Assembly (NCBI RefSeq): GCF_947492535.1 | Contig: NZ_CANLNH010000001.1 | Span: forward strand, 372,001-436,000 | Reading direction: 5' to 3' | Origin: an uncultured Dokdonia sp. | GTDB taxonomy: Bacteria > Bacteroidota > Bacteroidia > Flavobacteriales > Flavobacteriaceae | DNA: 64,000 bases | Shown here: positions 43,519-62,534 of the stretch, piece after piece | How positions within the stretch are numbered: the stretch's first letter is position 1 | How the letters are laid out: the number at the start of each line of letters is the position of its first letter | The notes under the pieces: generated by a model | Told to the model about the DNA's origin: nothing | The model's input: the letters and a program-made list of their open reading frames with translations, nothing else | Databases searched by the model: none | Made by a program: the position numbers and the translations under genes

Positions 43519-44841
43519 TTGACTATGCGTTTAGAACAGAAGGGCACACAACAAATTTTTGACTACCTAAAAGAAGTAATTCTTTGGCGATTAGAAAATA
43601 CGGAAACACCACTTAAAGTGTGCCCTTTAAAGTATACACCTTCAACCTATGAAGAAAGTTCTCTAGGGAACTATATTGCAAAACATGCCTTAGATCAAGA
43701 AGAGATTATTTCGCTTTTACTCTCATTAGTACCACATGTATATCCTACATTTTTAAGAGATGTAAGTATCGAAAGCGAAAACGGAGTATTGTATTTCTTT
43801 TCACAAACACGCGCAGATCAAAAAAATGCAGACCCAACAGCAGAGACCATTTTGTATGCACTCGCAGGAGATGATGTAGCAGGAAGAATCGCTGCGATTC
43901 ACTTCTTACATAACAATAGACTATTTAATGAATTACAAGTCTTACATACGGCTCCTACAGAAAAAGGAGAACCCGCAGTACGAGGAAAACTACTCATATA
44001 TCAAGACGCTTTTCAGGAAATTGTACTAGGCAGTACTATTATACCTAAACTCAGTGAAGAGTTCCCTGCACAAGAAATCAAAACTCAAATGACATGGGAT
44101 GATCTCATCTTATCAGAAAACACCTTGCAAAAACTACAAAACAGTAAGACATGGCTCAAGCATAACGATACCTTATTAGAAGAGCTGGGAATGAAAAAAA
44201 GGCTCAAACCAGGATATCGTGTGCTCTTTTATGGAGCGCCAGGAACAGGAAAAACACTTGCAGCGAGTCTATTAGGGAAGTATACTGGAAAATCGGTATT
44301 TAGAGTAGATCTCTCTGTATTGGTCTCTAAATACATAGGAGAAACAGAAAAACATTTAGCAAACCTATTTAACAAAGCAGAAAAGAAAGATTGGATTCTC
44401 TTTTTTGATGAAGCAGATTCTGTATTTGGAAAAAGAACCAATGTGCGAGATGCCCATGATAAATATGCAAACCAAGGCGTTTCCTATTTATTGCAAAAAA
44501 TTGAAGCCTATCCAGGTATGGTGATTCTAGCATCAAATTATAAAGACAATATTGACACCGCATTTATGCGTCGTTTCCAGTCTATTATTCATTTTGAATT
44601 ACCAAAAGCAAAAGAACGTTTACGTATCTGGAAGCATAATATTCCAGAAAAACTAGAACAAGATGCTTCATTAAAACTAGACGAAATAGCCTCAAAATAT
44701 GTCCTGAATGGTTCTAATATTATGAACTGTATTCAAGATGCAAGTTTAAAGGCACTGGCAAACAAAGATAGAATCCTAACACAGGCAATGGTGTTAGAAA
44801 GTATAAAGAAAGAATATCATAAAGAAGATAAGGTGTTTTAA
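43519..44841 (+). CDS. eCIS AAA+ ATPase (Afp15/Pvc15-like)
   Basis: 440 residues. The N-terminal ~190 residues are system-specific. The C-terminal AAA+ domain has Walker A GAPGTGKT (239-246) and Walker B FFDEAD (295-300). Sensor-like ASNYKDN and arginine-finger region FMRRFQ follow. Such ATPases are a constant part of eCIS loci and are thought to help particle assembly or cargo loading. A 15-bp-stem hairpin follows the stop. Confidence 0.9.
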   Translation: MTMRLEQKGTQQIFDYLKEVILWRLENTETPLKVCPLKYTPSTYEESSLGNYIAKHALDQEEIISLLLSLVPHVYPTFLRDVSIESENGVLYFFSQTRADQKNADPTAETILYALAGDDVAGRIAAIHFLHNNRLFNELQVLHTAPTEKGEPAVRGKLLIYQDAFQEIVLGSTIIPKLSEEFPAQEIKTQMTWDDLILSENTLQKLQNSKTWLKHNDTLLEELGMKKRLKPGYRVLFYGAPGTGKTLAASLLGKYTGKSVFRVDLSVLVSKYIGETEKHLANLFNKAEKKDWILFFDEADSVFGKRTNVRDAHDKYANQGVSYLLQKIEAYPGMVILASNYKDNIDTAFMRRFQSIIHFELPKAKERLRIWKHNIPEKLEQDASLKLDEIASKYVLNGSNIMNCIQDASLKALANKDRILTQAMVLESIKKEYHKEDKVF

Positions 44842-45052: not shown

Positions 45053-48000
45053 ATGAGAACAGGTACGCAACCCGAAATAAGAGCATCTCAATTAGGTGCT
45101 GCTCAACAAAACAAAAAAGCAAAAAATGCTGTTGCTCTCCAAGGAAAGAAACAGCAAAAAGCAAATAAAGGAGTTCCTCCGTCGTTAGACGAAGCCCTCT
45201 TTGGAGCACCTCAAAAAATAAACACAACAGGTCTTAAGGATACAGACTTTAATGCAAAACAAGTAGGGCAGTTGGCAGCAGATCCTACAGTGGGAATACC
45301 CGATATTCTAGATGCGCAATTTTTAGATATCGCAAGTATTCCTACAGCAAAAGTATCAGTGCCAGAAGTTCCAAAAGAACCTGTTGCTAAAGAGACACCT
45401 GCTGTAAAAAATGAAGGTGAAACAATAACAATTGTCCAAAATACAGAAGCAAAAGCAGCAGCGCCAGCAACTACAAAAGATCCAGTAATAAAAGCAGCGC
45501 CAGCTATAAAAAATGCAGGAGAAGTGCCAGTAATTACAGAAAAAACAGAAGGAAAACCAATCCCAGAAGCTGGCACAAAAGCAGGTGTTCCTGTAACGAT
45601 AGCAAAAACTCCAGAAGAAAACGAAAACTTCCAGGCTTTAAAAATGGAAGTAAGTGAGACTGCCAAAGGACAACAACAACATGAGTCGTCTGGCAAAGCA
45701 AGTGCAAAAGCACAAGCTGCAGCACCTTCACCAAGTAATGAGCGTGAGAGTATAGCACAAGCCAGACAAGTAGATGTCATGGCAGCGCAAGATGCAGAAG
45801 AATTTAGCGCAGCTGCTTTTAAAGTGCAATTACAAAGTCGTATTGCAGAAATGCAATTACCCGAAGATGAAGAGGCGGCAGATAAGTTTGATGAAAATAA
45901 TAATATTGCAGAAGTAAATAAAAATGCGATGGGAGATGTGAGTGGTGCCTCACAAAAATCTTCAAGCGCGATTGCAAGCGCCACTTCTGCAAAACCAAAT
46001 ACGGCTGCTACACCTAAGCGAAATGTGGCCAAAATGCCAACCCCTAGATTTGGTAAAAAACCAAATGTAGCAGGTGCTGGAAAAGCCATGCCACCTACAC
46101 GTACTGCTGCTGAGGTAGAGCAACCATTACAAGAGCAAAATAGTACCGTAGATAACGAGATGGCAACACATGGTGTAACCGATACTATGCTCGCCAACTC
46201 AAACGAAGCTTCTTTTACAGGAGCATTGGCAGAGAAGAATGCAGCCAAAGCGCAAAGTGACGCAGCTACACAACAATTCAGAACTCAAGAAGAGCAAGAG
46301 CAACAAAACGTGCAGCAAAACGCACAACAGCAAACCAATGCACAAATTGGAGGCATGAATGCAGCACGTGTTGCTGGGTTGAATAAAGTAGCAGGAAATC
46401 AAAAACAAACCGCATCCAAAGATTCAGCAGAACGTAAACGTATCGCCGATGCAATTAATGGAAAATATGAAGCAGCAAAATCTAAAGTAGATACTATTTT
46501 AGACCAACTGGATACAGATGTTGCCAAAGAGTTTGTAAAAGGATCAAATGCTGCCAAAAAAGCCTTTGAAGATCATATAGACAAAGAAATGACGGCCTAT
46601 AAAGAAGAACGTTATGGAGGTGCTTGGTATAGCTGGAAAAACATTCGTCGTGTAGGCGATTACTTAGGAGGACTTCCAGAAGAAGTCAATGAATTCTTTG
46701 TGACAGGACGTGAAGTATATATCAACACCATGGATGGGTATATCGAAACCATTGCCAATATGGTAGCAAATAGACTCAATAAAGCAAAACAAGAAATAGC
46801 CAATGGTAAAAAAGATGTACAAGCGTATGTAAGTTCTTTAGATCCTAATCTACGTAAACTTGGTAAAGAAGCCGCTTCTGCTATAGAAGATAAGTTTGAT
46901 AGCCTAGAACAAACCGTAAATGATAAGAAAGATACGCTTATAGAAGCATTAGCAGAACAATATGCAGCCAATATCGAAGCGGTAGATGCTCGTATTGAAG
47001 AACTCAAAGCTGCCAATGAAGGATTGGTAAGTAAAGCCCTAGGAGCTTTAAAAGGAGTCTTCGATTTTATTATCAAAGTAAAAAACACCTTAACCAATTT
47101 ACTAGCAAAAATAGTAGAAGTAGTCGTGGCCATTATCGCAGATCCAATAGGATTCTTATCCAATATGATGGCAGGCGTAGGGCAAGGAATTTCCAACTTC
47201 TCTTCTAATATTGTAAAGCATTTACAAAGCGGTTTGATAAGTTGGCTTACAGGAGCCATGAGTGGTTTGAGTATTACCATGCCAGAAGATGTATTCTCTT
47301 TGAAAGGAATCTTCTCGCTGTCTTCACAGATCATGGGCTTTACCTGGCAAGCCGTGCGTAGAGTAGGAACCAGAGTGATTGGAGAACCGGTGATGAAAGC
47401 CTTAGAAACAGGCTTCGAACTCGTTAATATCCTACGTACAGAAGGACTCGCAGGATTGTGGGAATACATAAAAGAACAATTCCAAGATCTAAAAGCAACC
47501 GTCATAGATGCGGTGATGGACCTGATCCAGACACAAGTGGTACAAGCAGGTATCAAGTGGTTATTAGGATTACTTTCTCCAGTTGGGGCTTTTGTAAAAG
47601 CCGTGATGGCCATTATAGATGTGGTGAAATTCTTTATAGAACGTGCTGCACAAATCGCTGAGTTAGTGAGTGCCTTTATGGATTCTGTCTCAGCTATTGC
47701 TTCTGGAAAAGTAGGCGCGGTTGCAGCCTCTATAGAAAAAGCGCTAGGAAAAGCAGTACCCGTAGTAATAGGACTCCTAGCCTCTATTTTAGGTATAGGT
47801 GGCTTAGCGCGAAAAGTGATCAAGCTCTTTAAGAAAATCCAAAAACGTGTAGAAAAAGCATTGGTAAAACTTTGGAAGAAGATTAAGAAGATGGCGAAAA
47901 AGTTCTTGAAGAAGTTTAAAACTAAAAAAGGTGATGCAAAAAAGATCAAAAAAGAAAATGAAAAAGGTGAGATAGAGCAAATAACCTCAGAAGATAGAGC

Positions 48001-48898
48001 AGAGCATAAAAAAATTGCAAAAGCAATAAAAGTAAAACTAGAAACAACTCCTAAGAAGAAAGATCTTTCTTTTGAAGAACTATATGCAATTAAAAAGAAA
48101 GAAGCTACTACTTTAGAAGATGAGTATCAACCTAAACTTAAAAAAGGAATTAATTTAGATGTTAAGTTTAATCCAGTCATTTCTGATCAAAAAGATACTG
48201 ATGTTGATATGCAAATTAAAATTGCACCTAATGACACGGTTGTTAATGCTACTTCTGAACTGAATTCTGAAAGCGAAAATAGTTTAGAGAGAATAAAATT
48301 AAAGGTAATTAAATTCAATTTGCCAGTTAAGAGGGAAACGCACCCTGAATTCAAAAGACAAATAAAGATTCAAGAAGAAGAGCTTAATAAAACTCTTGTG
48401 AGTAGATGGTTGAAAAATAGAGATTTGTTTATAAAAAGAGCTATTGAAACTGGTGAAGGAAGGGATCCTGAAGGAGATAAAGAAATAACAGAACTAAGAA
48501 AAATAATTAAAAGAGATTTAGCAGATTACTTTATTAGAGAAAATGGATCTAAACTAAGAAGTCAAGGAAAAACAAGAGATGAGATTGATATTTTAGCGAA
48601 AGAACATGCTGGAAATCTTTTAAATAAAAATAAAGTAATATTACATAACCCTGATCAGATAGCAGGAGGTGATCCTTTAGTAATTGAAAAGTTTAAGAAA
48701 TTAAATAAAATTCATAATAAAGAGACGTTAGAAAACCACAAGATGGTTGGTGATAGATCTGCTAATAGCTCAATAGGTTCTCAATGGGGTAAGAAAAACA
48801 GAATAGAAGATTTACATTCACATGTTAAAAAAGAATATGACAAATTAAATGAAGATCAAAAAAAACATATTAAATTGAACGTTCAACTCAAATATTAA
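45053..48898 (+). CDS. eCIS cargo protein with C-terminal Ntox15-type nuclease domain
   Basis: 1281 residues. Residues 1-460 are Ala/Lys/Gln/Glu-rich, low-complexity and probably disordered. 460-700 are helical. About 700-930 hold repeated hydrophobic/amphipathic helices (VVIGLLASILGIGGLARKVI), ending in a very basic stretch (KLWKKIKKMAKKFLKKFKTK). From ~970 the composition changes. The tip carries HNPDQIAGGDP (His1198, Asp1201), then GDRSANSSIGSQWGKK (from 1233): the HxxD plus NSSIGSQW pattern of Ntox15, the DNase domain of Tde effectors. No DUF4157 HExxH is seen. A Tdi-like immunity gene follows 12 bp later. Likely loaded into the particle and injected. Confidence 0.8.
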   Translation: MRTGTQPEIRASQLGAAQQNKKAKNAVALQGKKQQKANKGVPPSLDEALFGAPQKINTTGLKDTDFNAKQVGQLAADPTVGIPDILDAQFLDIASIPTAKVSVPEVPKEPVAKETPAVKNEGETITIVQNTEAKAAAPATTKDPVIKAAPAIKNAGEVPVITEKTEGKPIPEAGTKAGVPVTIAKTPEENENFQALKMEVSETAKGQQQHESSGKASAKAQAAAPSPSNERESIAQARQVDVMAAQDAEEFSAAAFKVQLQSRIAEMQLPEDEEAADKFDENNNIAEVNKNAMGDVSGASQKSSSAIASATSAKPNTAATPKRNVAKMPTPRFGKKPNVAGAGKAMPPTRTAAEVEQPLQEQNSTVDNEMATHGVTDTMLANSNEASFTGALAEKNAAKAQSDAATQQFRTQEEQEQQNVQQNAQQQTNAQIGGMNAARVAGLNKVAGNQKQTASKDSAERKRIADAINGKYEAAKSKVDTILDQLDTDVAKEFVKGSNAAKKAFEDHIDKEMTAYKEERYGGAWYSWKNIRRVGDYLGGLPEEVNEFFVTGREVYINTMDGYIETIANMVANRLNKAKQEIANGKKDVQAYVSSLDPNLRKLGKEAASAIEDKFDSLEQTVNDKKDTLIEALAEQYAANIEAVDARIEELKAANEGLVSKALGALKGVFDFIIKVKNTLTNLLAKIVEVVVAIIADPIGFLSNMMAGVGQGISNFSSNIVKHLQSGLISWLTGAMSGLSITMPEDVFSLKGIFSLSSQIMGFTWQAVRRVGTRVIGEPVMKALETGFELVNILRTEGLAGLWEYIKEQFQDLKATVIDAVMDLIQTQVVQAGIKWLLGLLSPVGAFVKAVMAIIDVVKFFIERAAQIAELVSAFMDSVSAIASGKVGAVAASIEKALGKAVPVVIGLLASILGIGGLARKVIKLFKKIQKRVEKALVKLWKKIKKMAKKFLKKFKTKKGDAKKIKKENEKGEIEQITSEDRAEHKKIAKAIKVKLETTPKKKDLSFEELYAIKKKEATTLEDEYQPKLKKGINLDVKFNPVISDQKDTDVDMQIKIAPNDTVVNATSELNSESENSLERIKLKVIKFNLPVKRETHPEFKRQIKIQEEELNKTLVSRWLKNRDLFIKRAIETGEGRDPEGDKEITELRKIIKRDLADYFIRENGSKLRSQGKTRDEIDILAKEHAGNLLNKNKVILHNPDQIAGGDPLVIEKFKKLNKIHNKETLENHKMVGDRSANSSIGSQWGKKNRIEDLHSHVKKEYDKLNEDQKKHIKLNVQLKY

Positions 48899-48910
48899 AA
48901 AGAAATTATA

Positions 48911-49504
48911 ATGAAAGATATATATAAAGAGTTCATTTCTTTTATGGGTGACTCAATCAAATTCTCTAATGTCTCAGAAAAAGAAATAAAAAAATATCAA
49001 AAAGTTTTTATGGGGCCTAAAGATGAGGTTAATATTATAACTGAAATATGGAAAAATTATGGTTATTGTTCTTATAGAAATGGTTTATTTTCAATAATCA
49101 ACCCAGAGGAATATAATGATTACGTAAAAAAGTTTCCTAGTATATCAAATGATGCAATTGCATTTGCAAAATCTGCTTCAGGATGTTTTTTTTTGTGGGA
49201 TAAATTTAATTTCGGTTGGGCAATATCCCATTTAAATATACACACTGGTAAAACTAATATTTTAGGTTCTAATTTTGATATGCTTTTTGAGTGGAACCTT
49301 ACAAGTGAAAATTTTTGGAGAGAAGATTGTTATGGGAATATAGAATTAGAAATAGTTAAAAAGAAAATTTCTTTAGAATTTGATGAATGTCTAACTTTTA
49401 TGCCAGCATTAGCATTGGGAGGAGAAGAAAAAGTTTCTAATATGCAAAAAGTAAAAGTGAAAGAAAATTTAGAACTTTTAGCTCAATTTTATCAAAAAAA
49501 ATAA
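48911..49504 (+). CDS. Tdi-like immunity protein (GAD-like/DUF1851)
   Basis: 197 residues. The first half resembles the GAD-like domain (EIWKNYGYCSYRNGLFSIIN, PEEYNDYV). The second resembles DUF1851 (AFAKSASGCFFLWDKFNFGW, CLTFMPALALGGEE). This pair is the make-up of Tdi immunity proteins, which neutralise Tde Ntox15 DNases. Its position 12 bp after the Ntox15-bearing cargo gene fits. Cytoplasmic, no signal peptide. Strongly AT-rich. Confidence 0.8.
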   Translation: MKDIYKEFISFMGDSIKFSNVSEKEIKKYQKVFMGPKDEVNIITEIWKNYGYCSYRNGLFSIINPEEYNDYVKKFPSISNDAIAFAKSASGCFFLWDKFNFGWAISHLNIHTGKTNILGSNFDMLFEWNLTSENFWREDCYGNIELEIVKKKISLEFDECLTFMPALALGGEEKVSNMQKVKVKENLELLAQFYQKK

Positions 49505-50166: not shown

Positions 50167-50189
50167 ATTTACATAAATAGAGATATATG

Positions 50190-50312
50190 CCCCACAGTAA
50201 CTTGTGGGGTTTTTCTTTTCGCGAAAGCGTGAGATAAAATATTATAGCTGAGATATACTTTGTAAATTGAAGAGACACTATTTCCTGCTAAATCACCACC
50301 AGTTACAAACTG
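50190..50312 (+). repeat. Cassette repeat copy 1 (terminator + palindrome + conserved tail)
   Basis: It begins with the hairpin CCCCACA-GTAACT-TGTGGGG and TTTTT, then the TTTCGCGAAA palindrome, then ~85 bp ending ATCACCACCAGTTACAAACTG. It is near-identical to 51081-51204. Confidence 0.9.
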
Positions 50313-50328
50313 GCAAATTCATAGTGAT

Positions 50329-50511
50329 ATGACTGATGATGAAAGGAAAGAGGCGCTAAAAAGATTGCAAAAACTAAAACAACATCCTAGAAGAGTTGAG
50401 GAGGTTTTCTACTTTGCTGTTGTAAAAGATGAATTAAAAAGAACTTTAGGAAAAGTGAGAGCTAAAACTGCTCATGGAGATATTTGGCTAGATAAATTAT
50501 TTAAAAAATAA
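50329..50511 (+). CDS. Orphan toxin-tip-like short ORF
   Basis: 60 residues from ATG 50329, but the frame is open back to 50266 through the repeat (FPAKSPPVTNWQIHSD then MTDDERKEA). It is basic and helical, with HPRRVEEVFYFAVVKDELK and AHGDIWLDKLFKK. No full domain is present and no family is recognised. It ends 5 bp before the next gene. Best read as the 3' remnant of a displaced toxin C-terminus preceding its immunity gene, but the evidence is positional. Confidence 0.5.
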   Translation: MTDDERKEALKRLQKLKQHPRRVEEVFYFAVVKDELKRTLGKVRAKTAHGDIWLDKLFKK

Positions 50512-51056: not shown

Positions 51057-51080
51057 TTTATTAGACTATTAAATTCAAAA

Positions 51081-51204
51081 CCTCACAGTAACTTGTGGGG
51101 TTTTTCTTTTCGCGAAAGCGTGAGAGAAAATGTTATAGCTGAGATATACTTTGTAAATTGAAGAGGTACTATTTCTTACTCAAATCACCACCAGTTACAA
51201 ACTG
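51081..51204 (+). repeat. Cassette repeat copy 2
   Basis: CCTCACAGTAACTTGTGGGG-TTTTT, palindrome at 51108-51117, then the conserved tail to ATCACCACCAGTTACAAACTG. Aligned with copy 1 it shows only scattered substitutions and one 1-bp indel. Confidence 0.9.
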
Positions 51205-51263: not shown

Positions 51264-51749
51264 TTGTTTGATGTTTATTTTGTGTATTATATTGATAATC
51301 AAATATTTATTGTCTTGAAAAAAACTGCTGTTTTTATTTTTGAAAAACTGAAAATAGAATTATTTAGTGAAAGTTTAAAAAATGAATTTCGTGCATCTGA
51401 AAATAATTTTATAAGAATTAGGAAACAACAATTTTCCCATACCTTGTTATTTATGTTAAACATGCTACGTAAAAGCCTATCTCTAGAGATTGAAAACTTT
51501 GTAAGTTTTCTGAAACTCAAAACACATCAGAGATTTACAAAAAGTGCTTTTGTTCAAGCTAGGATGAAAATTAAATCAGACGTTTTTAAATATCTTTCTC
51601 AAACTTTAATAAAAGAGTTTGGGGGTTATGATGATTTAGATGATCTAGAATTCCTCTTAGAAGAGAATGTTAAAATGAATACAACTAATCTGGAGAATTT
51701 GAATGTCTTGCTATCTTCTAAACAGAAAAAATTAATTACATTCAATTAA
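51264..51749 (+). pseudogene. IS4-family transposase N-terminal fragment
   Basis: 161 codons. Residues ~20-122 (RIRKQQFSHTLLFMLNMLRK, SLSLEIENFVSFLKL, FTKSAFVQARMKIKSDVF, YLSQTLIKEF) are the N-terminal region of Bacteroidetes IS4-type transposases. The catalytic DDE domain is missing: after GGYDD the sequence becomes unrelated and stops. Full-length transposases are ~400 residues. This is a remnant inserted or captured in the third cassette. Confidence 0.75.
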
Positions 51750-52455: not shown

Positions 52456-52477
52456 GATTAACTTAAATTTAAATAAA

Positions 52478-52520
52478 CCTCACAATGATTTGTGGGGTTT
52501 TTCTTTTCGCGAAAGCGTGA
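52478..52520 (+). repeat. Cassette repeat copy 3 (terminator and palindrome only)
   Basis: CCTCACAATGATTTGTGGGG-TTTTT then the palindrome core at 52505-52514 and GCGTGA. It lacks the conserved tail of copies 1 and 2, so it marks the array end. Confidence 0.85.
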
Positions 52521-53031
52521 AAAAAGAAACTGTATATTAAACCAATCATATTGAGATAAATCCTCTCTTTTCTCATGATGTATTATACAATATATATTTA
52601 GCTCTGCTCGGGATAAACTTCTGTGTCACGATGTCCTTTAAAGTGTACAAAAATCTTAAGAAATCTTCTTTAAGGTACATGCTATAATCCTTACAATTCT
52701 TAAGTTTCTAAAGTGTAATAAAGATATATTTATTTGTAAAATGTGTTATTCTGATAAAAATATTACAAAATATAAGTGATTGGTTATTAGTTGTTTAATG
52801 TGTTTTTGTTGCTTACTTACTGAAGCTACGGATTAGACACTATCAAATGTTTTGAGAAACTATGTTCTCTGTGTATGTTTGTACTGTGATTAACAAATAA
52901 CACAAGAAGTACTTCACTTATTAGCAATCACATTTGTCTTACCATTCTAGAAAATCAAGACAAGAAAAGCTAGTTGCACTGGCTACATAATAAATGCTTT
53001 TAGACAAAAATAAATCAATAAAAAGGAGACC
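52521..53031. other. Leader region of the structural operon
   Basis: About 510 bp without a gene. It contains a weak inverted repeat TCTTAAGAAA...TTCTTTAAGG near 52651-52675 and the 17-mer TACTGAAGCTACGGATT (52818-52834), which nearly recurs at 43269. It should hold the promoter of the structural operon. A strong Shine-Dalgarno GGAG at 53025-53028 precedes ATG 53032, unusual in Bacteroidetes. Confidence 0.5.
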
Positions 53032-53649
53032 ATGATCTACGATGTATTAAGGATAATTAAAAATGAAATAGGAAATTATCTGGATGATGAAAACCTAGTA
53101 GTATTAGAGAATATAGCCAAAGCAGAAGATGCGAGTAATACGTCATTAAATGATAAAGTAATTGTTACTTTATTAAGTACAGAAGAAGAGTCTACACTCA
53201 AAAATACACCAAGACACGAAATAAAAAACGGCACTAAAGTTTATAAAAGTGGCGCAGCATATCTCAATGTGTATATGATGGTAGCAGCCAATAGAAGTAC
53301 GTATGAAAAATCATTGCAATCTATTTCTAAAGTAGTAGAATTTTTTCAAGACAAATCCATTTTTACAAATAACAATACAGATACGTCCATTTTCACAGGA
53401 GATGAAGCAGACCCTCAAATTGAGGAATTCAAGTTTATGGTAGATCTCAAGTCACTTCGTATTGAAGAGTTGAGTTATGCTTGGACCGTATTAGGAGGAA
53501 GAACTATGCCTTCTGCTTTATATAAAGTGAGTATTGTAAAAGTACAGAGACAGAAAGTAAAAGGAAAAGGACCTGCTATTACTACAATACAAAAAACCGC
53601 ACTCAATCTAACAGAAAATTTAACGGAAAACTTTACAGAAAATGAGTAG
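53032..53649 (+). CDS. DUF4255 tail-terminator protein (Afp16/Pvc16-like)
   Basis: 205 residues. The start MIYDVLRIIKNEIGNYL, then KVIVTLLSTEEESTLKN and YLNVYMMVAANRSTYEKSL, is typical of DUF4255, the family that caps the tube/sheath end in Afp and PVC particles. The C-terminus has a short repeat (LTENLTENFTENE). It opens the structural operon, whereas in the Afp operon the equivalent is last. Overlaps the next gene by 8 bp. Confidence 0.9.
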   Translation: MIYDVLRIIKNEIGNYLDDENLVVLENIAKAEDASNTSLNDKVIVTLLSTEEESTLKNTPRHEIKNGTKVYKSGAAYLNVYMMVAANRSTYEKSLQSISKVVEFFQDKSIFTNNNTDTSIFTGDEADPQIEEFKFMVDLKSLRIEELSYAWTVLGGRTMPSALYKVSIVKVQRQKVKGKGPAITTIQKTALNLTENLTENFTENE

Positions 53650-54472
53650 TACAATCAAATATGTGCAAATATTTAATTTAAATATTTTTCACAATTACTT
53701 TCTGGATAAGAAAGATACAACTGATAATGATATAATAGTAGTTTTTGACGATACTCAAAAAACAGAAGATTTATCAAGTTATAATGTGTCTGATTTTCTT
53801 CGAATAACACCTAGTCAAGACACAAAAAGAATACTGGCAAATCATAAAGTAGTTTTTAAAACAACAACAGATGGTGCTACTTGCTTTATTTCGGTAGATC
53901 AAGATTCAAAACCAATCATTGATAGTACGGGTGCAACGGTAGATTTACTAATCTATAGTCGAGATACTTTTCTGGAAAAGTATACAGATATGGATACAAA
54001 TTCAGAGGGTATTTACTTCTTTACAAATGATATTGCAGAACCTGCAAATTCGATCAATACTTTAGATGCTGTTCCAGCTACAGATTTAGAACTATATAAA
54101 GTAGGCGTGAGTGCTGATCCAATGAGTAAATATCAAACACTTGTAGGCTCATTAACAGGAAGAGAACAACGCTCTTTATTGGGAATTGTATCTATACAAC
54201 TAGATACATTATTAGATGGAGCAGGAGCTGTTGTAAATCCTACAGAGTTCAAAGTAGTTCTAAAGAATAGAAAAACAGTATGGGTATATCTAAATGATGA
54301 TGGCACTGTAGCAGCAGAAACAGCTACGCCACAACCTTTTATGAATAAAGGAAATATTATCCCTAGAGATGCATCTAATGTTGTGATTCCGTATAGAATG
54401 GCAACTCCTTTTGATGCTTTTGCATTTCAAACAGATCCAAATCAGCCCATAAAAACACAAGTATATATTTAA
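53642..54472 (+). CDS. eCIS-associated protein of unknown function
   Basis: 276 residues, no signal peptide, beta-rich, overlapping the DUF4255 gene by 8 bp. Landmarks are FNLNIFHNYFLD and VSDFLRITPSQDTKRILANH, with the C-terminal VVIPYRMATPFDAFAFQTDP. I recognise no named family. The tight coupling to the terminator gene and upstream of the sheath suggest a structural or cap-adaptor role at the distal tail end. Confidence 0.65.
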   Translation: MSSTIKYVQIFNLNIFHNYFLDKKDTTDNDIIVVFDDTQKTEDLSSYNVSDFLRITPSQDTKRILANHKVVFKTTTDGATCFISVDQDSKPIIDSTGATVDLLIYSRDTFLEKYTDMDTNSEGIYFFTNDIAEPANSINTLDAVPATDLELYKVGVSADPMSKYQTLVGSLTGREQRSLLGIVSIQLDTLLDGAGAVVNPTEFKVVLKNRKTVWVYLNDDGTVAAETATPQPFMNKGNIIPRDASNVVIPYRMATPFDAFAFQTDPNQPIKTQVYI

Positions 54473-54499
54473 CCAAGAACTTTTTTAAAATAGATAAAT

Positions 54500-56131
54500 A
54501 TGTTAACACAATTGAAAACACCAGGAGCATTTATTGAGGAGGTATCAAAATTTCCTCCATCAGTAGCACAGGTGGAAACAGCAATTCCTGTATTTATAGG
54601 GATTACTGAGAAAGCAACAAGAAAGGTAGAGGGGGATTTGTCAGAGTCGCTTGTAAGAATTACGTCTTTACTAGAGTATGAAACGCTTTTTGGAGGCGCA
54701 AAGAAAGAAACAGTAGAGTTGATAGATGATGCCGAAAATGGACTTACACTGGTTGCACCAGAGGTGAAATTCTTGATGCCATATGCAATGCAATTATTTT
54801 TCGCAAATGGAGGAGGGCCTTGTTACATCATTTCGATAGGAGGGTTTGTTGATGAATCTTCATCAGAACTAAAATCAAGAATAGAAACATGCTTAGCTGA
54901 GGCAGCAAAAGAAGATGAAATTACATTATTAGTTTTTCCTGATGCAACGCAAACCCTTAATGAAGAGGATTTTTATGGAATGTATCAAATTGCATTAGAT
55001 CAAGCAAATGAGTTGAAAGATCGTTTTGTACTTATAGATACGTATAAAGGAACTACTACAGATCTGACAACCATTGATACAAATGTAGATAAGGATACAA
55101 TTTTCCATTTAAGGAATAATGTGCCTGGAGATAAATATGGAGCAGCCTATTTTCCATACTTAAAGACAATATTAAATCCTGTTTTTAATGAAAAAGCAGC
55201 TATTGTTCATACAGGAACTGGATATGATTACAGTGCTGAAGAAATACTATTAAATAATTTAATAGTTGAAATTAATGCTGATACAGCTGGAGATGATCTT
55301 GAAGAGAATAGAACAGCGCTTTTAGCCATTTTTGAAACAATCAATGAAACATATGATTTTCCATTTGATTTAACCCCATATATAGATGCTACAACTTCAG
55401 CAGAATTGGCAGCGGCATACTTTAATAATGTTGTAGATGCAGGAGGATTTAGTAGTGATAACTTAGGAGCTCTTAGCGGTCAAAAATTAGAGGATTTAAA
55501 GGGAACTACTCTTTACAATGAAATTCAAGCGTTAATTAATGCAGTTCCAGTTGTACTACCTCCATCTGCAGCTATGGCAGGAGTGTATGCTAAGACTGAT
55601 AGCACTAGAGGAGTTTGGAAAGCGCCAGCAAATGTAGGATTAAACTTTGTGGTTGGACCTACAGAAAAAGTAGATAATACACAACAAGATGGACTAAATG
55701 TAGATGCTACTGCTGGAAAATCAATCAATGTGATTCGCACATTTACAGGAAAGGGTACCTTAGTATGGGGCGCAAGAACATTAGATGGCAATAGTAATGG
55801 GTGGCGTTACATATCTGTTCGTCGTTTCTTCAATATGGTGGAAGAGTCTGTAAAGAAAGCTTCAGAACGCTTTGTTTTTGACTCAAATGATGCCAATACG
55901 TGGATCAGAGTAAAAGGAATGATCGAAAATTTCTTAAATACCCAATGGAGAGCAGGAGCACTTGCAGGAGCGACACCAGAAGATGCCTATTTCGTAAGTG
56001 TTGGATTAGATGAAACGATGTCTGCACAAGATATTTTAGAAGGAAGAATGATAGTGGAAATTGGAATGGCAGCAGTACGTCCAGCAGAATTCATCATACT
56101 TCGATTCTCTCACAAATTACAAGAATCATAA
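54500..56131 (+). CDS. Contractile sheath protein 1 (longer paralogue)
   Basis: 543 residues. The N-terminus LKTPGAFIEEVSKFPPSVAQ and the C-terminal ~170 residues (IRTFTGKGTLVWGARTLDGN, WRYISVRRFFNMVEESVKKA, AVRPAEFIILRFSHKLQES) are those of phage-tail sheath proteins (Afp2-4/Pvc2-4). It is ~97 residues longer than the second sheath because of extra sequence in the variable middle (about 225-335), likely surface-exposed. Contraction of the sheath drives the tube. Confidence 0.95.
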   Translation: MLTQLKTPGAFIEEVSKFPPSVAQVETAIPVFIGITEKATRKVEGDLSESLVRITSLLEYETLFGGAKKETVELIDDAENGLTLVAPEVKFLMPYAMQLFFANGGGPCYIISIGGFVDESSSELKSRIETCLAEAAKEDEITLLVFPDATQTLNEEDFYGMYQIALDQANELKDRFVLIDTYKGTTTDLTTIDTNVDKDTIFHLRNNVPGDKYGAAYFPYLKTILNPVFNEKAAIVHTGTGYDYSAEEILLNNLIVEINADTAGDDLEENRTALLAIFETINETYDFPFDLTPYIDATTSAELAAAYFNNVVDAGGFSSDNLGALSGQKLEDLKGTTLYNEIQALINAVPVVLPPSAAMAGVYAKTDSTRGVWKAPANVGLNFVVGPTEKVDNTQQDGLNVDATAGKSINVIRTFTGKGTLVWGARTLDGNSNGWRYISVRRFFNMVEESVKKASERFVFDSNDANTWIRVKGMIENFLNTQWRAGALAGATPEDAYFVSVGLDETMSAQDILEGRMIVEIGMAAVRPAEFIILRFSHKLQES

Positions 56132-56163
56132 AAATTAAACAGTAAAAATTAAAACAGAAAGTT

Positions 56164-56595
56164 ATGAATGAATACCCATTAGTAAAGTTTTCCTTTCAAG
56201 TAGATTGGGGAGGAACTCAAATAGGTTTCCAAGAAGTGTCAGGATTAGACATCGAAGTAGAGCCTATTGAGTACCGTCAAGGAGCAAGTCCAGATTTTAC
56301 AAAAATTAAGATGCCTGGAATGACCAAGTTTAGTAATATCACATTAAAACGTGGATCGTTTAAAGGAGATAATGAATACTTCGATTGGTTTAACAGTATC
56401 CAATTAAATACAGTAGAACGTAGAACGCTTACTATCTCATTATTAGCAGAAGATGGTGCTCCAGCAATTACTTGGAAAGTAAATAAAGCATTTCCAATTA
56501 AGGTACAATCTACAGACTTAAAAGCAGAAGGAAACGAAGTAGCAGTAGAATCTATCGAGATTGCTCATGAAGGATTAGTAATCGAAAACAGTTAA
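56164..56595 (+). CDS. Tail tube protein 1
   Basis: 143 residues of the gp19-like tube family (Afp1/5): YPLVKFSFQVDWGGTQIGFQ, EYRQGASPDF, GDNEYFDWFNSI, FPIKVQSTDLKAEGNEVAVE. It stacks in hexameric rings inside the sheath. It differs from the copy at 58110 at only a handful of residues, and ~30 bp of upstream leader are also identical, so the pair arose by recent duplication. Confidence 0.95.
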   Translation: MNEYPLVKFSFQVDWGGTQIGFQEVSGLDIEVEPIEYRQGASPDFTKIKMPGMTKFSNITLKRGSFKGDNEYFDWFNSIQLNTVERRTLTISLLAEDGAPAITWKVNKAFPIKVQSTDLKAEGNEVAVESIEIAHEGLVIENS

Positions 56596-56631
56596 TAACA
56601 CATTAAAAATAAACATTAAACATTTTATATT

Positions 56632-57972
56632 ATGAATTATAAAACACCAGGTGCATTCATAGAAGAGGTATCAATATTTCCACCTTCAGTAGCACAAGTT
56701 GAAACAGCGATCCCAGCTTTTGTGGGACGTACAGAAAAAGGTCCACAAAACGAACCTACTCGAATCACGTCTTTACTAGAGTACGAAACATTATTTGGAG
56801 GCGCAGAACCTCAAACAGGAATTACAGTGACTATTACTGATGGAGTAGCAGTAGCAACTCTTGCAGCAGCAAGCGCATTCAAAATGTACTATGCAATGCA
56901 AATGTATTTTGCTAATGGAGGTGGTCCTTGTTATATCGTATCTGAAGGAGTTTATGGGCCAATAGCATCAACAGTTACGAGTATTGGAGAAGGGTTAGCT
57001 GCAGTAGCTAAAGAAGATGAGCCAACATTATTAGTATTCCCAGATGCAGTATCATTATCAGAAAGTGATGCGCATTCAGTCTATAACAGTGCATTAGATC
57101 AATGTACATTATTACAAGATCGTTTTGTAATTATGGATACGGTTGCAGATAATCAAGCATCTGTAGATAGTTTTAGAACAGGAGTTACAAGTGATTTAAA
57201 ATACGGAGCAGTATATTATCCACACTTACAAACGATCTTAAACTATGAATATAATGATGTAGATGTAGTTGTTGCCGCTAGTACAAATAGTGATGGAGTT
57301 GCAATTGCAGCAGAAAATTTAGCAGAATTAAAAGCAGAAAATTCAGGAGCTTATAATGCAGCTAAAAACGAGATCGCTTCATCATTACGTGTAGTGTTAG
57401 CGCCATCATCTGCAATTGCAGGAATCTATGCAAAAGTAGATAGTACAAGCGGAGTATGGAAAGCGCCAGCAAATGTAGGATTAAACTATGTAGTGGCACC
57501 TACAGTTAAAATTTCAAGCCAAGATCAAGAAGATCTAAATGTAGATCCTGTAGCAGGGAAATCAGTAAATGCGATCCGTACATTCACAGGAAAAGGAACT
57601 TTAGTTTGGGGAGCGAGAACACTAGATGGTAACAGTAACGAATGGCGTTATGTATCTGTTCGTCGTTTCTTTAACATGGTGGAAGAGTCTGTAAAGAAAG
57701 CGTCAGAACGTTTTGTTTTTGAATCTAATGATGCTAATACATGGGTACGTGTACGTGCTATGATCGAGAATTTCTTAAATACACAATGGAGAGCAGGTGC
57801 ACTTGCAGGAGCGAGTCCAGAAGATGCGTATTTCGTAAGAGTAGGATTAGGAGAAACCATGTCTGCACAAGATGTATTAGAAGGTAGAATGATTGTAGAG
57901 ATTGGAATGGCAGCAGTACGTCCAGCAGAATTCATTATTCTTCGTTTTTCTCACAAACTACAGGAATCATAA
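56632..57972 (+). CDS. Contractile sheath protein 2
   Basis: 446 residues, paralogue of the preceding sheath, with the same N-terminus (YKTPGAFIEEVSIFPPSVAQ) and a nearly identical C-terminal domain ending HKLQES. The compact middle makes this the likely main sheath subunit, by size comparison with Afp/PVC sheaths. Followed by a palindrome (58007-58026) in the 137-bp gap before the second tube gene. Confidence 0.95.
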   Translation: MNYKTPGAFIEEVSIFPPSVAQVETAIPAFVGRTEKGPQNEPTRITSLLEYETLFGGAEPQTGITVTITDGVAVATLAAASAFKMYYAMQMYFANGGGPCYIVSEGVYGPIASTVTSIGEGLAAVAKEDEPTLLVFPDAVSLSESDAHSVYNSALDQCTLLQDRFVIMDTVADNQASVDSFRTGVTSDLKYGAVYYPHLQTILNYEYNDVDVVVAASTNSDGVAIAAENLAELKAENSGAYNAAKNEIASSLRVVLAPSSAIAGIYAKVDSTSGVWKAPANVGLNYVVAPTVKISSQDQEDLNVDPVAGKSVNAIRTFTGKGTLVWGARTLDGNSNEWRYVSVRRFFNMVEESVKKASERFVFESNDANTWVRVRAMIENFLNTQWRAGALAGASPEDAYFVRVGLGETMSAQDVLEGRMIVEIGMAAVRPAEFIILRFSHKLQES

Positions 57973-58006
57973 AAATAATTTAAGGGATAAAAATATAAAT
58001 ACGGCG

Positions 58007-58026
58007 TACGCTTTCGCGAAAGCGTA
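58007..58026. repeat. TTTCGCGAAA palindrome within the structural operon
   Basis: TACGCTTTCGCGAAAGCGTA between sheath 2 and tube 2. It is absent from the equivalent sheath 1-tube 1 gap, so it was gained after the duplication. Confidence 0.85.
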
Positions 58027-58109
58027 AGAAGGCTCACCACACGTAATTTATATTCTTTATTACAAATTAAATTAGAATAATTAAACAGTAAAAATTAAAA
58101 CAGAAAGTT

Positions 58110-58541
58110 ATGAATGAATACCCATTAGTAAAGTTTTCCTTTCAAGTAGATTGGGGAGGAACTCAAATAGGATTTCAAGAGGTTTCAGGTCTAGATATAG
58201 AAACAGAAGTAATTGAATATCGTCAAGGGGCGAGTCCTGATTTTACAAAAATCAAGATGCCAGGAATGATCAAGTATAGTAACATTACTTTAAAACGTGG
58301 ATCGTTTAAAGGAGATAATGAATACTTTGATTGGTTTAACAGTATCCAATTAAATACCGTAGAGCGTAGAACAATTACGATCTCATTATTAGATGAAGCA
58401 GGAGTGCCAGCAATCACTTGGAAAGTGAATAAAGCATTCCCTATGAAGGTTCAGTCTACAGACCTAAAAGCAGAAGGAAACGAAGTAGCAGTGGAGTCTA
58501 TTGAGATTTGTCACGAAGGATTAGTCATCGAAAACAACTAA
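58110..58541 (+). CDS. Tail tube protein 2
   Basis: 143 residues, near-duplicate of the tube protein at 56164. Differences cluster at DIETEVIEY, MIKYSNIT and LLDEAGVP. The leader before the start (AAACAGTAAAAATTAAAACA) is the same as for tube 1. Possibly a distal or initiating tube variant, or gene dosage. Confidence 0.95.
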   Translation: MNEYPLVKFSFQVDWGGTQIGFQEVSGLDIETEVIEYRQGASPDFTKIKMPGMIKYSNITLKRGSFKGDNEYFDWFNSIQLNTVERRTITISLLDEAGVPAITWKVNKAFPMKVQSTDLKAEGNEVAVESIEICHEGLVIENN

Positions 58542-58545
58542 AATC

Positions 58546-59007
58546 ATGGCAGCAATATATCCACCAACTAGTTTCTCTTTTATTGTCAACGGGGTTTCTA
58601 CTTTAGAAGGTATTGATTCTCAATTTCAATCGGTAACAGGTCTTAGTACTGAGATTGGAGTTGAAGAATATGCCGAAGGTGGAGAAAACAGATTCTTACA
58701 TCAACTACCTACGCGTCCTAAGTATCCAAGCTTAGTTCTGAAAAGAGGGTTGATTACAAACTCTGGCTTGATTAAATGGAGTAGAGATGCTATGGAGAAA
58801 TTTCAGTTTGAACCTCGAGATCTTATTATAACACTTAATGGAGGCTTAGAATCTACAGCACCTTTAATGGTGTGGAATGTAGTAGGAGCGTATCCTGTTA
58901 AATGGGATGTATCAGAATTCAATGCTGAAGAGAACAAATTGGCAATAGAAACTGTAGAGTTAAAATATAGATATTTTACAATACCTAGCGCTAGCTTTAG
59001 CTTATAA
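58546..59007 (+). CDS. Third, divergent tube protein (Afp5/Pvc5-like)
   Basis: 153 residues of the same tube fold but divergent: YPPTSFSFIVNGVSTLEGID, FQSVTGLSTEIGVEEYAEGG, LVLKRGLITNSGLIKW, AYPVKWDVSEFNAEENKLAI. In Afp/PVC the equivalent joins the tube to the spike hub. It is 4 bp after tube 2. Confidence 0.92.
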   Translation: MAAIYPPTSFSFIVNGVSTLEGIDSQFQSVTGLSTEIGVEEYAEGGENRFLHQLPTRPKYPSLVLKRGLITNSGLIKWSRDAMEKFQFEPRDLIITLNGGLESTAPLMVWNVVGAYPVKWDVSEFNAEENKLAIETVELKYRYFTIPSASFSL

Positions 59008-59182
59008 GTAATCAAAAAAATAACACATAGCGCACTGACTCACAGGAAGTAAATCAAAAACATTTTTTGAATAATACATACAGATTCATGGATATTCCGT
59101 GATGCTGATAGGACGTGCTATGTGTTTGATTTTTGAAGATGTTGTTTTAAAAAAAGAGTAAAACATAAGTAAATAAAACAAT

Positions 59183-59344
59183 ATGCCAATAGAAATTAAA
59201 GAGTTACACATAAAAATTAATGTGGACGAGGATACTACAGGAAGTACAGGAGTAACTACTGTTGATCAGAAAAGAGTGACGCATTTGATACAAGAAAATG
59301 TCGCACAAATAATGAAAATACATCACCGTAAAAAAGAAAGATAA
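59183..59344 (+). CDS. DUF5908 small protein (Afp6/Pvc6 position)
   Basis: 53 residues: MPIEIKELHIKINVDED, then a Gly/Thr linker, then RVTHLIQENVAQIMKIHHRK. The MPIEIKEL-type start is typical of the short DUF5908 proteins coded between tube and LysM genes of Bacteroidetes injection systems. Its stop overlaps the next ATG by 1 bp (TAATG), which supports translation. Confidence 0.85.
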   Translation: MPIEIKELHIKINVDEDTTGSTGVTTVDQKRVTHLIQENVAQIMKIHHRKKER

Positions 59345-60066
59345 TGGAAGGCGAATTAGCAAAACTAGAAATAGCTACTTATACAAAGTCTGACTATAAA
59401 ACTAAAGTAAGGAGCGGGGCATTTAATGCTTTTATAAATCCAGAAAGTTATTCTATAACGTATAAGAACAATTTTAATACTGATCGTAGTCCAGGTCAAC
59501 AAAGAGATAATTATAAGTATGACTCATCAGTTTCGCCAGATTTAGATCTAGAGTTCCTTTTTGATGGTACAGGAGTAGTACAGCAGAATAGTGGAAACAG
59601 ACTTTTGAATTTACTTTCAGGGGGTGCTGATTTTGTTAAGGATACTGTGAAAGGGCAGATTGATAAATTTTTAGAAGCTACCGGAGAATATGATGGTACT
59701 ATTCATAAACCTTATAATGTCATTATAAGTTGGGGTGATTTTGAATTTAAAGGAGTGTTATTAGAATTAACTCTTGATTATAAGTTGTTTACTCCGGATG
59801 GAAAACCTCTTAGAGCAATAGGTAAGGCAAAATTTCATGAATCCATTAGTCCAGAATTAGCCGAAGCAGAAGTGAAAACTAATTCTCCAGATCTAACCCA
59901 TATCAGAATGGTGAAAGCTGGTGATACATTACCATTGATGACTGAACGTATTTATGGAGATGATAAATACTACTTAGAAGTAGCTAAAATCAATAACATT
60001 ACAAGTTTTAGACAATTACAACCAGGGACAGAAATTTTCTTTCCACCGATTGAAAAAGTATCATAG
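59344..60066 (+). CDS. LysM-containing baseplate hub protein (Afp7/Pvc7-like)
   Basis: 240 residues. The N-terminal part (FNAFINPESYSITYKNNFNT) is the conserved region of eCIS gp53-like proteins. The C-terminal LysM domain (about 184-238) reads HIRMVKAGDTLPLMTERIYG, then YYLEVAKINNITSFRQLQPG. It links tube hub and baseplate. Directly followed (2 bp) by the spike gene. Confidence 0.93.
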   Translation: MEGELAKLEIATYTKSDYKTKVRSGAFNAFINPESYSITYKNNFNTDRSPGQQRDNYKYDSSVSPDLDLEFLFDGTGVVQQNSGNRLLNLLSGGADFVKDTVKGQIDKFLEATGEYDGTIHKPYNVIISWGDFEFKGVLLELTLDYKLFTPDGKPLRAIGKAKFHESISPELAEAEVKTNSPDLTHIRMVKAGDTLPLMTERIYGDDKYYLEVAKINNITSFRQLQPGTEIFFPPIEKVS

Positions 60067-60068
60067 AT

Positions 60069-61814
60069 ATGAATAATAGTGGATACATACAAACATCAAA
60101 AAACCCTGACTTAGTTACTTATAAGGTACTATCAGGAGGCAATGAATTACCTGGGAAATATCGTGTGAAAAGCATTGTGGTAGAAAAGGAAGTCAATAGA
60201 GTTCCTTATGCTCAGCTTGTTATTTTAGACGGAAGTTCTCCAGATCAAGAGTTCGAATTGAGTAATGAAGAATTACTCATTCCTGGTAAAGAAATTGAAA
60301 TTACTGCAGGATATCACTTAGATGAAGAAACTATTTTTAAAGGAATAGTTATCAAGCATAATATCAAGGTTAGAAGCGGAATTTCCTATCTCATTATTGA
60401 ATGCAAGGATGAAGCAGTAAAAATGACCATTGGTAGAAAAAGCAACTATTTCTATGAAAGTACAGATAGTGATATCATTGAAGAGCTTATAGGTAATCAA
60501 GGATTAACAGCAGATGTAGAAGCTACAACAAATACACACCAGGAATTAGTACAATACCACGCTTCCGATTGGGATTTTATGGTCACAAGAGCACAAGCAA
60601 ATGGAAAATTATGTTTTGTTGATGATGGTATTATAAAAGTTGCTACTCCAGAGTTAAGTGGAGATACGATAGAAACCGTAGTTTATGGATCATCCATTCA
60701 TGAATTTGATGGAGAAATAGATGCTAGAGATCAATTTGATCGAATTACATCATATAGTTGGAATTATACAGATCAAGAACTTTTAGAAACAGAAGCACAA
60801 GATCCAGGAGTAAATCTTAATGGAGACATAGCTTCAAGTGATTTAGCTAGTGTTATACAATTAGAAAATCTAGAATTAAGACATGGCGGTAGTCTTTCTC
60901 AAGAAGAATTACAAGATTGGAGTGACGCAAAGGCATTGTATCAGCAATTAGCAAAAACCAGAGGTCGTGTAAAATTTCAAGGTATTCCAGCTGTAAAGCC
61001 AGGAGTTCTATTACAACTAGAAGGAATAGGTAATCGCTATAATGGAACTATTTATGTAACAGGAGTACGTCATGAAATTACTGATGGAAATTGGTTAGTA
61101 GATGCTCAATTTGGATTATGTCCTACTTGGTTTTCAGAAACCTATGATATTAGTGAAATGCCTGGTTCAGGAATCATACCTGCCATTAGTGGATTGCATA
61201 TAGGAGTGACTACACAATTAGAATCAGATCCCGATGGAGAAGATAGAATCTTAGTGCAAATACCTATCATTAATAATGAAGAACAAGGTATTTGGGCACG
61301 TATAGCCACGCTAGACGCTGGAGAAAATAGAGGGTCTTTCTTTAGACCAGAAATAGGGGATGAGGTGATTGTAGGATTTATTAATGATGATCCTAATGAT
61401 GCCGTCGTTTTAGGAATGCTAAATAGTAGTACAAAACCAGCTCCGCTAACAGCCTCTGATGATAATCATGAAAAAGGAATTGTCACTCGTAGTGAGATGA
61501 AAATGATTTTTAATGATGATAAGGTTTCATATGTGCTAGAAACCCCAGCTGGTAAAAAAGTAACCTTAGATGAAGATGCAGATCTCGTTCAAATAGAAGA
61601 TGAACATGCAAATATTCTCACGTTTAATAGTGATGGGATTACTATGGAAAGTGCAGGAGATATAAATATTAAAGCTACCGGTGATGTCAATATAGAAGGA
61701 ATGAATGTGAATGGAAAAGCAAATGCACAATTGACTGTTGAAGGTAGTGCAGGAGCAGAGATATCATCTGGAGCAGTAACAATTGTTAAAGGGTCACAAG
61801 TACAAATTAATTAA
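60069..61814 (+). CDS. VgrG-like spike protein (Afp8/Pvc8-like)
   Basis: 581 residues. The N-terminal gp27-like hub (about 1-370, with IECKDEAVKMTIGRKSNYFY and YHASDWDFMVTRAQANGKLC) is followed by a gp5-like OB fold (about 375-465: RPEIGDEVIVGFINDDPNDA, VVLGMLNSS). A C-terminal beta-prism with repeats follows (ITMESAGDINIKATGDVNIE). It forms the trimeric needle base that the PAAR protein caps. No toxin extension is fused. Confidence 0.95.
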   Translation: MNNSGYIQTSKNPDLVTYKVLSGGNELPGKYRVKSIVVEKEVNRVPYAQLVILDGSSPDQEFELSNEELLIPGKEIEITAGYHLDEETIFKGIVIKHNIKVRSGISYLIIECKDEAVKMTIGRKSNYFYESTDSDIIEELIGNQGLTADVEATTNTHQELVQYHASDWDFMVTRAQANGKLCFVDDGIIKVATPELSGDTIETVVYGSSIHEFDGEIDARDQFDRITSYSWNYTDQELLETEAQDPGVNLNGDIASSDLASVIQLENLELRHGGSLSQEELQDWSDAKALYQQLAKTRGRVKFQGIPAVKPGVLLQLEGIGNRYNGTIYVTGVRHEITDGNWLVDAQFGLCPTWFSETYDISEMPGSGIIPAISGLHIGVTTQLESDPDGEDRILVQIPIINNEEQGIWARIATLDAGENRGSFFRPEIGDEVIVGFINDDPNDAVVLGMLNSSTKPAPLTASDDNHEKGIVTRSEMKMIFNDDKVSYVLETPAGKKVTLDEDADLVQIEDEHANILTFNSDGITMESAGDINIKATGDVNIEGMNVNGKANAQLTVEGSAGAEISSGAVTIVKGSQVQIN

Positions 61815-61826
61815 TAAAAATAATAA

Positions 61827-62117: not shown

Positions 62118-62119
62118 TT

Positions 62120-62530: not shown

Positions 62531-62534
62531 AAAC

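Follow-up and report, generated by a model that had tools for sequence, protein, structure and literature searches.

The window analyzed here is a 64,000-nt stretch of DNA from an uncultured Dokdonia sp. (assembly GCF_947492535.1, contig NZ_CANLNH010000001.1, positions 372,001-436,000 of the forward strand). Within a contractile injection system (CIS) locus it contains an open reading frame (ORF) for a 1281-residue protein with a predicted Ntox15 DNase tip, followed by a Tdi-like immunity gene and by three further immunity-like genes. The protein is probably an antibacterial polymorphic toxin delivered by the CIS, in a locus where the tip has been replaced and immunity to other tips has been retained. 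All results were obtained by analysis of sequences, databases, and literature, and the genome of the strain (G000) is a draft in 73 contigs.

An ORF check confirmed the coordinates of toxin and neighbour, the length of 1281 residues, and the 12-nt spacing given in the initial annotation. The HNPDQ motif begins at residue 1198, which places the HxxD residues at H1198 and D1201 as had been claimed, and NSSIGSQWG lies at residue 1238. The Ntox15 domain proposed there was recovered with the Pfam profile (PF15604; E 2.3e-19, 70.4 bits against a cut-off of 22.5, residues 1098-1279). A search of the PDB with the tip (E up to 1) returned three matches, all of them Ntox15 (8fzz_A at 1.4e-11, 8g0k_A and 8fzy_A at about 4e-6), and both LHNPDQIAGG and NSSIGSQWG fall within stretches aligned to chain A of 8fzz. 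A chance motif match was ruled out by these profile E-values and solved homologues; NCBIfam models gave no Ntox15-type match on the toxin. The tip is thus predicted to be an Ntox15 DNase. Tde1 is a Mg-dependent DNase whose activity is abolished by the H279A change in HxxD (PMC10470768). PF15604 is rare in the order, being found in one of 395 sampled genomes, that of the window itself. The GC content of the tip is 0.278 and that of the chassis 0.410; values of 0.25-0.30 were obtained for the tip, Tdi, and the extra genes, and of about 0.36 for the AAA and sheath genes.

The neighbouring gene matches the profiles GAD-like (3e-10, residues 4-97) and T6SS_Tdi1_C (2e-13, residues 121-193), all above cut-offs. 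We take T6SS_Tdi1_C (PF08906) to be the DUF1851 named in the initial annotation, since the PDB partners bear the name 'DUF1851 domain-containing protein'. Against the PDB (E up to 1) the neighbour gave two matches, both immunity partners of Ntox15 (8fzz_B, 2.2e-16; 8g0k_B, 5.7e-13), and with NCBIfam just immunity_TaeI, far under its cut-off (68 bits against 450). The two domains and the adjoining Ntox15 gene are those of the Tdi family, and Pfam and the solved complexes together bear out the proposed toxin-immunity pair. The likeness to Tde/Tdi of the Bacteroidales type VI secretion system (T6SS; PDB 8fzz, 8g0k, and 8fzy; PMC10470768) covers both partners, an Ntox15 domain with HxxD and an adjoining Tdi; there, however, one Tde is fused to Hcp, whereas here Ntox15 tips a CIS chassis. 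In that system Tdi inserts into the nuclease core and splits the Ntox15 nuclease, and orphan Tdi proteins protect (PMC10470768).

The initial annotation had put the pair in an extracellular CIS (eCIS) locus. The pair does sit inside a CIS locus, with a tape measure, an AAA ATPase, Pvc16, two sheaths, three gp19-type tubes, CIS_tube, a spike, and gp25, among which are the sheath, tube, Pvc16, tape measure, and ATPase by which a CIS is recognized. The closest solved relative of the sheath is 7adz (9.5e-146), and the next is All3325 (7b5h), the thylakoid-anchored CIS. The eCIS label is one of gene content, and extracellular release would be a prediction. The structure 7adz is AlgoCIS of Algoriphagus machipongonensis, which carries, in the lumen of its tube, two cargo proteins whose C-termini differ; its cargo has DUF4157, and the word 'immunity' is absent from the accessible part of its text (PMC8894135). 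A classical T6SS effector was rejected because the T6SS sheath VipB (PF05943) had no match in G000, in a search that was positive in the E. coli control.

A first search with residues 1-982 of the toxin against 59 genomes gave matches in five, the window's own counted: the chassis proper was found in G007, G011, and G039, and a more distant form (27-29%) as part of other large proteins in G011 again and in G015. The set of relatives used below was obtained by a contig scan with two short peptide patterns, one genome per species, followed by chassis alignment, and comprises 17 loci. Loci are numbered L and genomes G; L019 (G007, a Dokdonia metagenome-assembled genome) and L020 (G011, Dokdonia pacifica) are of the same genus as the window, L024 (G039) is Chryseobacterium cheonjiense, L021 is Chryseobacterium ureilyticum, and L025 and L035 belong to one genome. 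By blastp, all 17 relatives match the window toxin up to residue 919-1123. The chassis of the two same-genus relatives shares 84.9% (residues 1-955 of the window toxin) and 87.3% (residues 1-936) identity with that of the window, and neither of them has a significant tip match to it; indeed, a search with residues 1098-1281 (E up to 10) drew no match from any of the 19 other toxins. Between chassis and tip lies a pre-tip module of which there are at least two kinds. That of the window is related to those of L029 (phmmer 1.6e-35), L035 (1.9e-28, with similarity extending to about residue 1128), and L028 (1.2e-28), and the other kind is common to L019, L021, L030, and L031. Pfam searches of 10 tips gave Endonuclea_NS_2 in four (L020, L021, L027, and L034), all under the cut-off. 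The family has the constant N-terminus and exchangeable C-terminal toxins of polymorphic toxins. Hydropathy placed hydrophobic segments of the chassis at centres of about residues 687-700, 845-854, and 905-914, and a structure model of residues 440-955 was all-helical (mean predicted local distance difference test score, pLDDT, 53.7).

An AAA or tape measure gene lies close to the toxin in 14 of the 17 relatives, with none near in L023, L031, and L035. The marker domain of known eCIS toxins, eCIS_core (PF13699), was sought by an HExxH scan of all toxins and then with Pfam on seven N-termini. It precedes the same chassis in five of the 17 relatives (L026, L027, L028, L029, and L032, at about 1e-29 to 2e-30) and is also present in the distant L016 and L017. 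The window toxin has neither an eCIS_core match nor HExxH, the N-termini of L021 and L025 are likewise without eCIS_core by Pfam, and a genome-wide search of G000, for which there was no positive control that gave a signal, found none. By sequence, the window chassis belongs with the known eCIS toxins yet lacks their marker domain; the idea that it is a kind apart from DUF4157 toxins was dropped because of the five relatives that bear eCIS_core on the same chassis. The eCIS_core proteins of L016 (8039-12316, minus strand) and L017 (7082-11401, minus strand) carry the tip and immunity families of the D. pacifica chassis toxin. This sharing suggests a transfer of tip and immunity gene between chassis that are distant relatives.

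A gene on the same strand starts between -28 and +31 nt from the toxin stop in 16 of the 17 relatives; in L031 the contig ends 156 nt on. The association of this gene with the tip was evaluated over 171 pairs from 19 loci, a set that contains the window, L016, and L017 but not L031. Downstream genes were related in 16 pairs, 15 of which also had related tips, compared with 39 pairs with related tips overall (Fisher 2.7e-10, for pairs that are not independent); L019/L034 was the exception. The family of the adjoining gene therefore tracks the tip, as in polymorphic toxins, and a protective role is predicted for it. Pfam searches of six immunity-position genes of relatives gave nothing above cut-off. 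In L028 (Glaciecola amylolytica, 13067-17257) the toxin is followed by a run of four genes that resemble one another and by eye look leucine-rich-repeat-like, and then by a further large toxin-like gene. In the Chryseobacterium loci L021-L023, L030, L033, and L034, the immunity genes are followed by small repeat proteins with GYIKxDGTIE-type repeats and then by tandem variable paralogues that share a start resembling TREELKTYFETGKYPT and may be fibre or adaptor proteins.

Beyond Tdi the window carries a stack of three more genes, I214, I179, and I231, together with a tip remnant and a transposase fragment (Table 1). Phmmer searches of the stack against 289 ORFs from 20 loci gave 11 matches in total. 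The matches of I214 were confined to genes that follow a toxin, in L020, L025, L016, and L017 and, weakly, in L024; I179 matched just those immediately following the L021 (1.9e-45) and L035 (1.4e-19) toxins; and I231 matched genes after the L019 and L034 toxins and one after an orphan tip in L024 (6e-8, 6.9e-6, and 8.8e-6) and nothing else. The 60-codon ORF ahead of I179 matched the end of the L021 toxin itself, and neither the IS4 fragment nor Tdi had a match in this set. Nine of the 10 homologues of the three genes thus stand directly after a toxin and one after an orphan tip, a placement with a naive probability of 2e-11, naive since the matches are related to each other. I214 had also been considered as part of the Tdi pair, which was rejected because it is the immunity-position gene of another tip. 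When G000 was searched with the matching tips, that of L021 had its sole match at G000:C1:422326-422508 (window 50326-50508; E 2.2e-8, 47%), and neither the D. pacifica-type nor the L019-type tip had any, although control searches found the resident copies in G011 and G007, respectively. Because these searches gave a stub or nothing, the strain, within the limits of a draft, keeps three immunity-like genes without whole toxins.

Each of the three cassette ends is marked by a terminator-like repeat consisting of a hairpin with a T run and then a conserved stretch. In G000 a genome search found three copies, all of them here and one after each extra gene; in G011 the repeat occurs once, after I214, and in G007 once after the immunity gene, with one 29-nt partial match elsewhere. 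I214 and its D. pacifica copy encode an identical protein and differ at 2 of 645 nt. Their divergence at fourfold sites (2/54 = 0.04) compares with 0.19-0.48 for ten other genes, the chassis among them, and I214 has been exchanged recently.

Displaced cassettes were also found among the relatives. Second copies of the chassis junction occur downstream of the toxin, on the same strand, in three of the 17 loci (two copies in L023, three in L024, and two in L033), and in the other 14 none was seen within the stretch examined. With the stub and I179 of the window, these are orphan tip/immunity cassettes. Seven displaced tip remains could be matched, the window stub counted; the reading frame shifts in four of them, three in L024 and one in L033, and that of the window is truncated. 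Several ORFs after displaced tips stay open, such as one in L024 that by eye resembles the gene after the L030 toxin. A known parallel is provided by the orphan arrays of CdiA-CT/CdiI, and by Rhs, where displaced 3' ends likewise lie downstream of the intact toxin in the same orientation with junction homology retained, and where transposase fragments and fragmented toxins also occur; displaced cdiA-CT/cdiI modules stand in tandem with transposase genes and are presumably kept for immunity (PMC4927057). The present case differs from CdiA-CT/CdiI in its contractile injection delivery, its other chassis, and the lack of a chassis fragment ahead of the window orphans.

In the mechanism that we propose, the 1281-residue protein would be a cargo of the surrounding CIS, its constant chassis of about 955 residues serving for loading and delivery and its pre-tip module and toxin tip being exchangeable. 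Tdi, as in the known complexes, would insert into the nuclease and split its fold. Recombination at the chassis junction may bring in a cassette of tip, immunity gene, and terminator that pushes the older tip aside; the toxin part of the older tip would tend to decay, while its immunity gene and cassette-end terminator would remain. I214, I179, and I231 would then be immunity genes of other tips, derived from earlier tips at this locus or from displaced cassettes, and would most likely protect against kin or relatives still firing those tips. The machine is most likely used at least partly between bacteria, because exposure to relatives firing older tips is the most economical explanation for immunity being kept. 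The bacterial target suggested in the initial annotation thereby gains support from stacked immunity-like genes for other tips, although the target itself is still something that we infer. We are evenly divided on a broader proposal, that this Bacteroidota CIS lineage runs an arms race like that of contact-dependent inhibition (CDI), in which one chassis receives cassettes at a fixed junction and each insertion leaves behind an immunity gene and a terminator, building up an inherited record of resistance against kin that fire older tips.

Several points weigh against this interpretation. An unfound tip could sit in a gap of the 73-contig draft, and all counts of relatives come from the one scan, in which a pair of short peptide patterns was used and each species was represented by one genome. 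I231 has weak matches, at 23-27% identity. None of the three genes I214, I179, and I231 is assigned to a family by Pfam, and an AlphaFold model of I214 (mean pLDDT 58.8) had no Foldseek match at E <= 0.001. No chassis fragment precedes the orphan genes in the window, and two of the seven displaced tips (that of L023 and one in L024) keep one frame, so that decay is not the rule. The orphan genes may also be passive relics, neutral persistence being possible above all for the very recent I214, and loading, toxicity, and protection are themselves predictions from sequence. If the CIS acted on eukaryotes and Tdi guarded the producer cytoplasm against a loaded DNase, the other genes would be such relics. 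We regard this as improbable, even though characterized eCIS such as Afp, AfpX, Photorhabdus virulence cassettes (PVC), and metamorphosis-associated contractile structures (MACs) act on invertebrates (PMC8213781), and even though relics would look alike soon after a replacement, when the intactness of a gene as recent as I214 is a poor guide to selection. Self-protection, the alternative offered in the initial annotation, accounts for Tdi but not for three extra genes whose toxins were unfound or reduced to a stub. In L024 several displaced tips change frame while the ORFs after them stay open; I179 and I231 are full-length despite a tip that is a stub or was not found; and the notable share of PVC systems without immunity genes has been read as a sign of distant targets (Zhang 2012, PMC3482391), whereas 16 of the 17 relatives here have a gene in position.

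The extra genes could also be unrelated cargo or an acquired-defence island that came to lie beside the toxin by chance. The lack of a Pfam family for all three and the IS4 fragment among them would agree with this, but their sole homologues in the 20 loci are immunity-position genes, one of them follows the end of its matching tip, and the same terminator-like repeat stands after each, as it does after an immunity gene in G011 and G007; either origin is very unlikely. A further alternative concerns delivery only and is compatible with a polymorphic antibacterial toxin, its tip, immunity, and cassettes being unchanged: the CIS may be anchored in the producer membrane and fire on contact, as in T6SS subtype 4. 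We consider this a real, if minority, prospect. Clade membership is in its favour, and so is the finding that sequence can be an unreliable guide to the mode of action of a CIS (PMC12998442). The CIS of Halogeometricum borinquense is membrane-bound, contact-dependent, and linked to toxin-immunity pairs (PMC11566945), and the toxins of this organism had been listed as PVC (Zhang 2012, PMC3482391). On the other side, AlgoCIS, the closest solved relative, was purified from culture supernatant with cargo in the tube (PMC8894135).

An Ntox15 tip on PVC/eCIS toxins is not new in itself, since the toxin table of Zhang 2012 (PMC3482391) names PVC among the carriers, with Bacteroidetes not among the taxa given there. 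The same work describes PVC proteins with variable toxins and reports that immunity genes are absent from a notable share of PVC systems and that stand-alone cassettes are rare for effectors without immunity genes. Antibacterial eCIS toxins and a first eCIS toxin-immunity pair have also been reported, the lack of immunity genes beside most being called a mystery (Geller 2021, PMC8213781). A 2023 review, in its accessible text, states that no immunity gene had been identified for antibacterial eCIS toxins (PMC10598620), and both a haloarchaeal CIS (PMC11566945) and a Sle1-type effector (PMC13277306) have immunity partners. PVC/eCIS toxins with the PVC-metallopeptidase (DUF4157, eCIS_core; PMC3482391, PMC8213781) resemble the window protein in their constant N-terminus, variable tip, and CIS locus; the window protein differs in lacking eCIS_core, and its family in having an immunity-position gene in 16 of 17 relatives, stacks, and displaced cassettes. 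Sle1-type CIS effectors of actinobacteria share a conserved N-terminus, a diversified C-terminus, and one effector-immunity pair, but they belong to another phylum and are tape-measure-like, and no immunity stack or orphan cassettes are described in the accessible text (PMC13277306). TANFOR polymorphic toxins have a different N-terminus and are tied to the type IX secretion system (PMC7073777). Apart from the PVC entry for Ntox15 in Zhang 2012, no CIS or eCIS with orphan immunity genes, or with Ntox15, was found in the main texts of the literature searched; Figure 5a of Geller 2021 could list Ntox15. Within the literature searched, three features are new for a CIS locus: stacked immunity genes, tip cassettes that have been displaced, and cassette ends marked by a terminator-like repeat. 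On the broader proposal of an arms race, immunity genes, which most antibacterial eCIS toxins are reported to lack, would be plentiful at these loci and arranged in stacks. On one chassis, the family of loci provides toxins with an immunity-position gene in 16 relatives as well as in the window. It also provides orphan genes for which a matching toxin is predicted, and a tip exchange that arose naturally among closely related strains, D. pacifica and that of the window. Whether CIS kill bacteria, and kin especially, thus becomes directly testable with these loci.

Table 1. Features of the window discussed in the text, in order of position.
Feature	Position (nt)	Strand	Evidence or remark
LytTR DNA-binding protein	39785-40159		3.7e-18; candidate regulator just upstream of the CIS locus
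CIS tape measure, 487 aa	41775..43238	+	Pfam PF19268, 7.4e-104
CIS AAA+ ATPase	43519..44841	+	Pfam AAA, 3.2e-28; start TTG 43519 or ATG 43525
Toxin ORF	45053-48898	+	1281 aa
Chassis of toxin, residues 1-955	45053..47917	+	Matches all 17 relatives; alignment break near residue 955
Pre-tip module, residues 956-1078	47918..48286	+	Common to L028, L029, and L035 (phmmer)
Predicted Ntox15 tip, residues 1098-1281	48344..48898	+	Pfam, PDB 8fzz_A, motif, GC
HxxD motif, H1198/D1201	48644-48655	+	Motif position
Tdi-like immunity protein, 197 aa	48911..49504	+	GAD-like and T6SS_Tdi1_C; PDB 8fzz_B
I214, 214 aa	49522..50166	+	phmmer; identical protein after another tip in D. pacifica
Terminator-like cassette-end repeat, copy 1	50185..50312	+	Repeat families, genome search, alignment, hairpin
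Tip remnant, last ~60 codons of an L021-like toxin	50329..50511	+	Tip search of G000; phmmer 3.7e-11
I179, 179 aa	50517..51056	+	phmmer; follows the tip remnant
Terminator-like cassette-end repeat, copy 2	51076..51204	+	94% to copy 1 over 124 nt
IS4-family transposase fragment	51264..51749	+	NCBIfam NF033592, 1.4e-5, 24.3 bits against a cut-off of 115, profile 5-93 of 332
I231, 231 aa	51760..52455	+	Distant phmmer matches
Terminator-like cassette-end repeat, copy 3	52473..52534	+	81% to copy 1
CIS structural genes	53032..63998	+	Pfam, ORFs, downstream stretch L018

The CIS structural genes follow the stack in the order Pvc16, an unknown 276-residue gene, sheath 1, tube, sheath 2, tube, tube, a small ORF, CIS_tube, spike, a PAAR-like gene (labelled by eye), gp25, and a gene in the baseplate position (labelled by position) that runs past the end of the window, with further large genes beyond the edge (L018). 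At 54500-58541 a unit of sheath and tube is duplicated in tandem, the tubes being near-identical by eye and the sheaths differing in length and in their middle part. A second, seemingly partial CIS set is located at G000:C16:36857-45101 (L039), with a sheath 33% and a tube 43% identical to those of the window, a Pvc16-like gene (23%), and a short tape-measure-like gene (29%).

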